The position numbers were made by a program, and so were the translations under genes. A model generated the notes under the pieces. The model had not been told where the DNA came from and searched no databases. It saw only the letters and a list, made by a program, of their open reading frames with translations. From contig OY720348.1 in the NCBI GenBank assembly GCA_963082975.1, forward strand, positions 20,265,146-20,329,145: DNA of 64,000 nt, in the 5' to 3' direction. The stretch's first letter is position 1. Every line of letters begins with the position of its first letter. Source of the stretch: Labia minor (Eukaryota > Arthropoda > Insecta > Dermaptera > Spongiphoridae). This document shows positions 7,851 to 46,696 of this stretch, one piece after another.

Positions 7851-7999
7851 TGTTGGAGTTTTAAATGTGTTTAATGAAAATGCACTGTTCGAGTTTGAAT
7901 GTGTTTTTAATACAAGGTGAACATTTAAACTAAGGTCATACTATAAATATATATACAGGTAAGAAGGTGCAGGGTTACCAACTTTAATATACTTTAACA
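7851..7999 (-). repeat. 3' LTR of the intact copia element (149 bp)
   Basis: Begins TGTTGGAGTT and ends ACTTTAACA on the plus strand, and matches 12274-12422 base for base as far as I can read. In element orientation it contains an A/T run TATATATATTTATAG about 45 bases in, the only TATA-like stretch. At 149 bp it is short, but copia LTRs are often a few hundred bases or less. Confidence 0.95.
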
Positions 8000-8009
8000 C
8001 ACCCCCTTC
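8000..8009 (-). other. Polypurine tract of the intact copia element
   Basis: On the minus strand it reads GAAGGGGGTG and abuts the TGTTAAAG start of the 3' LTR. This is the standard position for plus-strand DNA priming. Between it and the ORF stop (8010-8073) there is only A/T-rich 3' untranslated sequence with a long T run. Confidence 0.85.
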
Positions 8010-8073
8010 AAGTGAATAATTAAAATATAAATAAATACAATTTTACAATATAAACATTTTTTTTTTTTTTTAA

Positions 8074-11000
8074 TTAATTCATTTGCTTGAGTCTTCTCAT
8101 ACAATCTTCTTGCTTGACCTTTGAGACGGTTTTCGTGAGAAAATCAGCAGGCATATTTTCAGTGCTTAAATACTTTAATTTTATTCTATTTTCTTTTATT
8201 AGATTTTTTATAAAATGATGTTTAATGTCAATATGTTTAGTTCTATTTTTATAAGCATTGTTTTCTGCAATGAACTTAGCACCTTGGTTATCACAATATA
8301 TTGTCGTGCATTTATTATTTTTCTCGATATTTATTTCTTTTAGAAAATTTTGCAAATATATGGCTTCTTTGGCTGCTTCGCCCATAGCCATGTACTCTGC
8401 CTCCGTGCTTGAGAGTGCGACTGTGTTCTGCTTTTTGGAGTTCCATTGGATCACACCCCCTTTAAACGTAAAAGCGTAACCTGTTATGGATTTTCGATCT
8501 ATTATTGAGTTCCCCCAATCAGAATCAACATATCCACATAATGGAGTACTCGACCCGTCAAATTTTAAACCAATATTTTTGGATCCTTTTAAGTACCTTA
8601 AAACTCTTTTTGCCGCTATGAAATGTTCTTTATCGTAACAGTTGTTAAATTGACTTAAAAAGTTCACCGCATACGTTATATCTGGTCTTGTGCTGATTGA
8701 TATATAATTCAATGATCCTATTAATGATTGATAAGGATATTTATTTAAGTTTTCTTTATTTTCGGATTTATACAATTTCAAATTTTTCTCAATCGGAGTT
8801 GAAATTGTTTTGCAATCTTCCATGTTAAACCTTTTTAACAATTCATCAATATATTTGGTTTGATTCATACTTAAGACGTTTTTATCTCTATCGTATTCAA
8901 ACTTTATGCCTAAAAATTGATTTATTTCTCCCATGTCTTTCATGTTAAAATCATTAGACAAATTCTTTTTAAATTCATTAATATCCTTTTTATTTGATCC
9001 TATTATGATTATATCATCCACGTAAATGATTAATATTAATACGTTTTTATTATTATTATTATTATTTTTAATATATATGCATGGATCACTCTCCAATGGA
9101 GACATTCCTAAATTTTTTAATTTTATGTCTAATTTTTTGTACCATTGGCGTCCGGATTGTTTCAATCCGTATATAGCCCTTTTTAATTTTAATATATTTT
9201 TCCCTTTTTTAAAGTCTTTTATCATTTGTAATGCAATCTTTTTTATATTTTCATTTTCATTTTCGACTAAATCTTTCAATATGTCGTTAAACCCTTCAGG
9301 ACATTCCATGTAAATGTTCTCTTCCAGTTCACCATTTAAATACGCTGCCTCCACGTCCATTTGTTCAATGTACCACTTTTCTTCTATAGACTTAGCCATT
9401 AGTGTCCTCACGCTGCTCATTCTGGCGACAGGTGAATAAGTATCAAAATAATCTATAGAATAAGTTTGGCTATATCCCTTGGCGACTAACCTGGCCTTTT
9501 TAGTATTATCATTTTTGGTCGTTAAGACAAAACGACTACCCACTATATTTTGATTTTCGTGTTTCCTGACCATTGTCCAAGTATCGTTTTTAATTAATGT
9601 AATCATTTCTTTCCTCATGGCTGTTTTCCATAAGTTCGAGTCTTCTTGCAATAGTGCATCTTTAATTTTCAGTTCTACATTAAGTCCTTGGACCTCTCCT
9701 TCGGTCGTTTCTATCGAGAGTTCATCTTCTGAACTTAAGACATCACTGTCTCTAGAGCTGGGAATTGTTTCTTCATCATTTTCACTTTCGGATTTTTTGT
9801 ATTGATAGACTTTTCTGGGTCTTCCCCTATTTCCACTTTTAATCATTTTAGGACGTCCTCTTCCTCTCTGTTGGTCAATGTTATTTTCGTCTATATCACT
9901 TTCTAAAGATGCATCATTATTATGTTTATCAATCATTATGTCCAAGCTGTTGTATTTTGAATTTTCTTCTAATAAATCATTATATTTTAAATTATCTCCA
10001 TTTTTATTATGAAATTCGTTTATAAATTTAATATCTCGAGTAATATGTACCCTTCTGGTCATGGGATCATATACTCTATAAGCTTTGCTTTCCTCGCAAT
10101 AACCTATAAAAATTCCTTCAATTGTTCTTGAATTTAATTTATTTTTATTATTTTTATTTAAAAAATGTACTCTCATACCAAAAGTTCTTAAATGTGAGAC
10201 ATTAAATTTTTTGTTTGTAAGGATGTTATAAGGTATTTGTCCTTTTAAAGATGATGTTGGGCTTCTGTTCCTCAAATAACATGCAGTTATTACTGCTTCT
10301 GCCCAAAAGGAATGTTCTAGATTTGCTTGTATTAACATACATCTCGTCATCTCCAATAGAGTCTTGTTCATACGTTCAGATAATCCATTTTGTTGGGGCG
10401 TATAAGGAACTGTTAATCTTCGCTTAATTCCTGATTTTTTTAAAAAATTATTAAATCTATTATTAATGTATTCTTTTCCATTATCTGATTGCAAATATTT
10501 AATCCTTTTATCTGTCATGTTTTCAATATAATTTTTATATTCAATAAATGCTTCAAAAGCTTGACTTTTGTATTTTAGAAATTTAACTTCGCAATATCTG
10601 CTTGCTTCGTCTATAAAAGTAATGAAATATTTATTTCCACCGATAGACGTGGTTCTAAATGGTCCACAAATATCTGTATGGATTATTTCCAATATTTCTA
10701 AATTTTTCTGTGAATTTGAATTTTTAAAAGGTGTTTGAGATAATTTTCCTTTAATGCATATTTCACAATTATCTAAATTTTCATTTAATATACTTTGGTC
10801 TAAACCGAAAACTTGATCTGATTTGGTTATTAGTTTTAAATCTCTTTCATTTAAATGTCCGTATCTTTTATGCCATATGTCTAATTTTGATAATTTATTT
10901 TTATTTAAATAATATGAAAAATCATTTTTATCTTTATTTTTAATATTTTCATTTAAATAATATAATCCGTTCTCCTTTTTCTTAGCTGTAAACATTAGTT

Positions 11001-46291: not shown

Positions 46292-46411
46292 GATATTGAA
46301 GTAAAGTATAAGCCAACAGAAGAAATGTTCGCTGATGTATTAACGAAAGGACTTCCTTCAACGAAGCATGAATTTTGTTCGAAAGGACTTGGTCTGAACG
46401 TTTTGTATTAA
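46292..46411 (+). pseudogene. RNase H C-terminal remnant
   Basis: Forty in-frame codons ending at a natural stop, beginning DIEVKYKPTEEMFADVLTKG. This matches the end of copia polyproteins (compare KYLSTENMPADFLTK at 1340-1354 of the intact element). It shows that both ends of pol were kept while the middle was lost. Confidence 0.82.
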
Positions 46412-46431
46412 ATTCAATATCGACTAATTTT

Positions 46432-46440
46432 AAGGGGGCG
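46432..46440 (+). other. Polypurine tract of the deleted copia element
   Basis: AAGGGGGCG directly before the 3' LTR start TGTTG. Confidence 0.85.
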
Positions 46441-46696
46441 TGTTGTATTTTTAAAATTAGTCTCATATATTAATATGAAGAAACCCCCCTGGTGTCATTA
46501 CTTCAAAGCACTACTAGCTTTGAACAGCTGATCAAGGTCAAAACACACACTTTTATATTTCTATGCTGAGCGATTAACACGCAAGCAGAATACTCACTCA
46601 CCTATATGTTCATCTGTATATATTATCATATATAATAAATATTCTTATATTTAAATTACAATATATCTTTTATTAACAAAACCTCTAGATCCTACA
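46441..46696 (+). repeat. 3' LTR of the deleted copia element (256 bp)
   Basis: Base-for-base match to 43901-44156 in my reading; ends GATCCTACA. Confidence 0.95.

Follow-up and report, generated by a model that had tools for sequence, protein, structure and literature searches.

Twin AT-hook motifs of copia retrotransposons and their insertion in an AT-rich satellite of Labia minor

The window analysed here, a stretch of 64,000 nucleotides from the genome of Labia minor, is a 161-bp satellite array interrupted by three long terminal repeat (LTR) retrotransposons, the copia elements copA and copB and a gypsy-like element, gyp. Each encodes motifs that resemble AT-hooks, single in gyp and paired, as what is here called the twin hook, in both copia elements. 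The twin hook is conserved in copia elements outside this genome and the copia families scored, all of which carry it, show an excess of insertions in the satellite. The interpretation put forward, to which we give slightly less than an even chance, is that the twin hook tethers the integration complex to the AT-rich repeat.

The locus and its AT-hook-like motifs

With its order of Gag, protease, integrase and reverse transcriptase (RT), its copia domains from Pfam and its short target-site duplication (TSD), copA is a Ty1/copia element (Table 1), and its LTR pair is 100% identical. Its end at 12422 was fixed by the TSD match, the BLAST end of 12423 overshooting by one base. The LTRs are also identical in the window's copB and 99.9% identical in gyp. 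The three open reading frames (ORFs) and their motifs lie where the original prediction, made from the window's sequence, had placed them: QRGRGRPK and NRGRPRK within residues 775-794 of copA, KKGPGRPK and KGRPKK within residues 454-473 of copB, and the single motif at residues 575-583 of gyp. The AT content of the satellite, predicted as about 81%, was measured as 80.9%.

Table 1. Features of the window. Positions other than that of the window itself are counted from its first nucleotide.
Feature	Position	Strand	Details
Window	C10:20265146-20329145		64,000 nt; 604-Mb assembly, 71 contigs
161-bp satellite array	1..64000	.	80.9% AT; fills window except three LTR elements
copA, Ty1/copia element	7851..12422	-	LTRs 7851-7999, 12274-12422; TSD CTGAT
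copA polyprotein, 1372 amino acids	8074..12192	-	Gag, zinc knuckle, Pol_BBD, integrase, SH3, RT
copA twin hook RGRGRPKMIKSGNRGRPRK, residues 776-794	9811..9867	-	between integrase SH3 and RT
gyp, non-autonomous gypsy-like element	23146..27363	-	LTRs 23146-23962, 26547-27363; TSD ACGG
gyp ORF, 586 amino acids	24306..26066	-	Gag, aspartic protease (sub-threshold Pfam matches), hook-ended tail
gyp single hook KKRGRPRKG, residues 575-583	24318..24344	-	
copB, non-autonomous copia element	43901..46696	+	LTRs 43901-44156, 46441-46696; TSD AATAT
copB ORF, 515 amino acids	44259..45806	+	Gag, Pol_BBD, acidic tail, twin hook
TTGAAGA, in-frame junction of integrase loss	45466..45472	+	same 7 bases flank lost stretch in autonomous partner
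copB twin hook KKGPGRPKFNKTNMKGRPKK, residues 454-473	45618..45677	+	

The motifs match the definition of an AT-hook as a GRP core flanked by basic residues, as worded in a review passage (PMC11354804). In composition-preserving shuffles, where a hook was counted as GRP with at least two basic residues among its six neighbours, at least one hook arose with P 0.011 for copA, 0.010 for gyp and 0.003 for copB, and two hooks with P 1e-4 for copA and in 0 of 20000 shuffles for copB. All three motif sets are unlikely to arise from composition alone. None reaches the gathering score of the Pfam AT_hook model (PF02178, cut-off 17.4 bits). The gyp motif is the highest scorer of the three with 14.8 bits, followed by copA with 13.2 bits, and the copB peptide gives no PF02178 match at all.

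Twin hooks and hook-tailed ORFs

The copia twin hook has the form GRP-x8-GRP, with cores 11 residues apart, and is located between integrase and RT. It occurs in four copia families of this genome, namely copA, the copB type and two further families, X and Y; in copA, X and Y a single copy per family was read. For the copB type it is present in all 21 distinct ORFs of more than 500 amino acids, of which 19 are non-autonomous, including that of the window, and two autonomous. Amongst 63 copia relatives, a GRP pair at a spacing of 11 is found in 21, a single GRP in six and none in 36. These relatives were collected with queries from the linker regions of copA and the copB partner, which include the hooks, and the proportion with a twin hook is thereby biased upward, although the constant spacing is unaffected. 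In P0050, one of the six with a single GRP, the context is that of the second hook. The best-scoring named copia relatives come from a pseudoscorpion and a bee; those of an ant and of several plants rank lower. Among named hosts the twin hook is found in Cordylochernes scorpioides, a pseudoscorpion, and Anthophora plagiata, a bee, and no GRP pair was seen in the named plant relatives among the 63.

An alignment was made of 18 non-redundant sequences, of which this genome contributed four. The two GRP cores do not vary in it (18/18), a lysine follows the second core in 17 and a tyrosine or phenylalanine closes the module in all 18. The cores carry 4.3 bits of conservation against about 0.7-2.1 bits in the linker flanks, and the module lies 49-88 residues ahead of RT in the 12 of the 18 sequences for which the RT start was located. 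A literature search, judged from titles and the starts of abstracts, gave no paper on AT-hooks in the integrase or Gag of LTR elements, and neither 'retrotranspos' nor 'transpos' appears anywhere in the body of a review on AT-hooks (PMC11354804).

The original prediction had called copB and gyp defective, with independent deletions. Neither is a one-off defective copy: that the two hook ORFs are lone, independently decayed copies is ruled out, since both belong to multi-copy families. Counting the window copy, the copB ORF has 21 full-length genome matches with identities of 96-100%, of which one contains a stop. Twenty-three distinct non-autonomous copies were read, with the window copy in and one of two identical-flank copies out; the LTR pair is identical in 16 of these and an ORF of more than 500 amino acids is open in 19, each with both hooks (19/19). 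Target duplications of 4-6 bases accompany 24 of the 26 two-LTR copies of the copB family, and those of 6 bases begin with the LTR's own last A. Two autonomous partners, L039 (1318 amino acids) and L040 (1328 amino acids), possess integrase, RT and both hooks. As LTR ends, primer site and polypurine tract are common to these two and to five compared copB copies, and one partner is devoid of RT and integrase, they form an autonomous/non-autonomous pair. Alignment to L039 and L040 shows that integrase was lost in frame at a 7-base microhomology and that RT and RNase H were also lost, with the acidic linker and its twin hook retained between the two losses. Hence copB derives, with its reading frame kept, from an autonomous partner whose LTR ends, primer site and polypurine tract match its own, and for copB the predicted loss of the integrase core is established.

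The gyp ORF is of full length and without a stop in 75 of 75 scored copies, the window's included, a set that consists of the best 75 of 632 candidates and is hence biased to intact copies. Pfam found no RT or integrase domain in it, and the one match within its last 93 residues is a hook below threshold. Another short gypsy family, gyp2, yielded 111 scored ORFs from 1390 candidates, most of them 640-670 amino acids in length. Its tail reads KRGRPK followed by IVRS or FVRS in four of the five tails read, the fifth being KRGRSKIVRS. In both families the stretch ahead of the hook tail presumably resembles the start of RT, which is a short stub in gyp. The hook tail of gyp may have been derived from integrase; no autonomous gyp partner was found, the ORF match lists showing short ORFs only and no search by gyp LTRs having been made. 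The best-scoring named protein relative of gyp is from a spider. The distance from the gyp ORF to the LTR edge seems variable, with the LTR missing where expected in 13 of 20 stretches, and the LTR regions of the window copy contain 32- and 54-base tandem repeats (23146-23222, 26531-26623, 23621-23729). Two gyp2 pairs stand in tandem about 3.46 kb apart (C5:68318195/68321659 and C4:40558850/40562311).

An outline of Gag-protease followed by a hook tail is thus seen in three families of two superfamilies, copB, gyp and gyp2, and a hook-tailed Gag-protease ORF with the hook of the integrase-RT linker was not met in the literature examined. It is about equally likely that the hook kept in these non-autonomous ORFs has a function and that it is a by-product. 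If functional, the hook-tailed Gag-protease may bind nucleic acid or chromatin. As a by-product, for which the chances appear nearly balanced, it would persist because deletions have to spare the 3' end, which holds the polypurine tract, and the native C-terminus is then retained when the join is in frame. The position of the hook as the last part of the ORF in gyp and gyp2 agrees with this, as does the copB junction in a 7-base microhomology, template switching being known to leave microhomology at junctions. The copB hook, however, is located mid-element, kept between two losses, and the recurrence of one outline in three families of two superfamilies also speaks for a function. Amongst the 23 copB copies, the 1545 bases of the ORF hold 7 frame-breaking gaps and the 637 bases of the 3' non-coding part 17; this relative scarcity argues for the ORF more than for the tail, where three such gaps occur in 345 bases. 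Purifying selection on the copB tail could not be shown, which favours a by-product. When non-autonomous copies are compared with one another, the ratio of nonsynonymous to synonymous substitution rates (dN/dS, or omega) is 0.76 in the tail, against 0.41 in Gag, and between non-autonomous and autonomous copB it exceeds 1 in both the tail (2.22) and the hook core (1.51); changes in the hook core comprise two nonsynonymous and two synonymous ones that are shared and two nonsynonymous ones in single copies.

Insertion in the satellite

For the insertion counts the window copies were excluded, as the window is a satellite array picked beforehand, identical flanks were counted once, and an insertion was called as satellite by a half-covered flank rule that was also used for random points. 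The satellite holds 9 of 23 insertions of copA, 6 of 24 of the copB family and 6 of 16 of X, a sum of 21 of 63, but none of 60 random points (Fisher P 1.1e-7); one of these points (L115) is 15% satellite and was scored outside. For copA, 26 copies were scored, 12 of them in the satellite before identical flanks were removed, and 8 further rows of the same similarity class were left out. The copB counts omit a fragment (L057) and a single LTR (L058), both outside the satellite. The X sample covers 16 of the 17 rows of its class, the skipped row abutting a tandem copy, and L149, with 12% satellite, was scored outside. Y was left out of the scoring; a stretch 1.5 kb ahead of one Y ORF (L137), in which the LTR edge was not placed, is without satellite. 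The satellite makes up an estimated 1-3% or so of the assembly, the 26,559 exact 38-mers corresponding to 0.96% at the density of the window and to 2.85% at that of four other arrays, and if arrays are collapsed in the assembly the real proportion would be higher.

The insertion of copia into this chromatin niche is thus non-random, with the reservation that uniform insertion followed by better survival of harmless satellite copies would give a similar picture. Such a retention bias is, in our judgement, distinctly improbable. The satellite is a plausible safe haven and some insertions were duplicated together with the array, as the same insertion with identical flanks is present at several places (L002/L003, L122/L123, L204/L205/L206) and the array seems to amplify along with the element inside. 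However, the satellite share is little different among copB copies with identical LTRs, at 4 of 15 once that of the window is excluded (P 0.005 against a share of 4.9%), which shows that the bias is present in very young copB copies. The insertions of copB are, in addition, clustered within the monomer, and two many-copy gypsy families have none of their insertions in the satellite, although gypsy may have target preferences of its own and is no neutral control.

The two gypsy families are gyp, with its single hook (0/20), and gyp2, with a GRP hook in four of five tails (0/19), the window's gyp copy being left aside. The difference from copia is pronounced (21/63 against 0/39, Fisher P 8.5e-6). 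The gyp sample represents 20 of the 74 rows that remain when the window copy is set aside. In seven of the 20 the stretch includes the LTR edge, and the other 13, in which no LTR was found and which share almost no sequence mutually, were taken as flank. For gyp2, 19 of 109 typed rows were sampled, two rows on C16 being left out and one pick dropped as its flank lay inside a tandem copy; these stretches were taken not from the LTR edge but from 3.15-3.4 kb upstream of the protease match. With a satellite share of 2.9%, chance alone would give 0/39 in roughly a third of cases, so that the gypsy counts demonstrate no avoidance of the satellite but only the absence of the copia excess. A hook alone is therefore not sufficient, and a single hook that terminates a Gag-protease ORF brings no satellite excess, whichever integrase moves the gypsy families. 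The original prediction, that hook tails may tether particles or integration complexes to the satellite, is accordingly strengthened for its copia half and wrong, by the test that it had itself set, as a rule for hook-bearing families in general; its observation is partly confirmed and its interpretation partly supported.

The target duplications of copB start at monomer positions 124-126 in five of seven cases (P 2e-4, 7-base window) and those of copA at positions 33-41 in five of nine (P 0.006, 10-base window), whilst the clustering of X in the monomer is not significant (P 0.083). These counts include the window copies, the flank of some copies was extended by one or two extrapolated bases (by five for the copA copy of the window), and the P values are approximate as several window widths were tried. 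Around copB sites outside the satellite, AT content is 0.81 over 40 bp against 0.735 at random (P 0.0145) and is not significantly above random over 120 bp (P 0.23). A plain preference for AT as the whole cause was rejected, as these sites are at most mildly AT-rich.

The proposed mechanism is that the twin hook between integrase and RT would bind the AT-rich satellite and so give rise to the insertion excess, with preferences of the integrase core probably acting together with the hooks to set the base-level site. Non-autonomous elements would be mobilised in trans by the enzymes of a partner; if their copies are integrated by the integrase of another element, the hook that they retain need not steer. 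Several observations weigh against this interpretation. Every copia family scored carries both integrase and twin hook, leaving no hook-less copia control, and a hook-less relative, P0059, when used as a query for a control family, listed mostly the same copia families. The excess could thus stem from another part of the integrase. Likewise, the hook-bearing gypsy families are without an excess, copA favours another monomer position than copB, X shows no significant preference and hooks alone predict neither, and copB sites outside the satellite are only mildly AT-richer than random. The hooks of copA, X and Y, furthermore, each rest on the one copy read, and dN/dS did not demonstrate purifying selection on the copB tail. 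It is possible, if somewhat doubtful, that the copia integrase core or SH3 domain, or a bound host factor, prefers satellite chromatin, with a co-occurring twin hook that has some other role, for example in nuclear import or cDNA compaction. The integrase shared by all flank-scored copia families, the different monomer positions of copA and copB and the lack of a gypsy excess all agree with this alternative; that the hook module is more conserved than the remaining linker, and that AT-hooks of host proteins bind AT-rich satellites in the part of the review concerned (PMC11354804), favour tethering by the twin hook instead.

Known counterparts and further observations

To our knowledge, the choice of site by LTR retrotransposons is understood for few elements, mostly through protein contacts. 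In Ty5, with its targeting tail, and in chromoviruses, with their chromodomains, a C-terminal extension of integrase picks the neighbourhood of insertion by binding proteins or histone marks, whereas a tail that binds DNA directly is proposed here. A wider reading, which we consider rather unlikely, is that the arthropod copia twin hook is an unrecognised DNA-binding targeting module, the counterpart of the chromodomain, that homes to AT-rich satellites, and that non-autonomous families of two superfamilies in this genome have converted their Gag-protease to a precursor with a hook tail that docks particles or their DNA on chromatin. If the module binds DNA directly, satellite homing would be predictable from sequence across arthropods and could be tested with a 22-residue peptide, whilst the gypsy families with a hook and without an excess already set bounds to the effects that a hook may have.

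The most similar complete system encountered is that of the wheat gypsy CRM elements RLG_Cereba and RLG_Quinta, for which passages of one study (PMC11302176), where the chromodomains of chromoviruses are also mentioned, propose that a CR domain in the integrase tail steers both into one chromosomal niche. As with copB, these are an autonomous and a non-autonomous partner with common LTR ends and primer site, the latter encoding Gag. In those passages Quinta consists of Gag and a domain of unknown function and CR is assigned to the Cereba integrase only (PMC11302176); copB, unlike Quinta, itself retains the linker hooks, belongs to the copia superfamily and has as its niche a satellite of unknown role. 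Copies of Tal1, a copia element of Arabidopsis lyrata, gathered mostly in centromeric repeats when transferred to Arabidopsis, which resembles the present case in that copia copies collect in tandem repeats, although Tal1 is a plant element and the passage that describes it does not mention an AT-hook (PMC9780303). Finally, the host AT-hook proteins D1, Cbx2 and HMGA1 bind AT-rich satellites and LEDGF/p75 tethers the integrase of human immunodeficiency virus, according to sections of the AT-hook review (PMC11354804). GRP-core motifs there guide proteins, or an integrase, to AT-rich DNA or chromatin, but they reside in host proteins, whereas here they are part of the element's own polyprotein.

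With regard to the 161-bp satellite, no paper that describes it turned up in the literature search. Beside the 161-bp form, the array in the window holds recurring shortened monomers of 134-135 bp (14897-15303, 27768-28028 and similar places). Copia insertions in the satellite were met on contigs C1, C2, C3, C5, C6, C9 and C10, and the satellite pattern starts 472 bases from the start of C1, which places an array at a chromosome or contig end. Two copA-type ORF matches stand head to head, about 350 bases apart, at C5:66868716-66871979.

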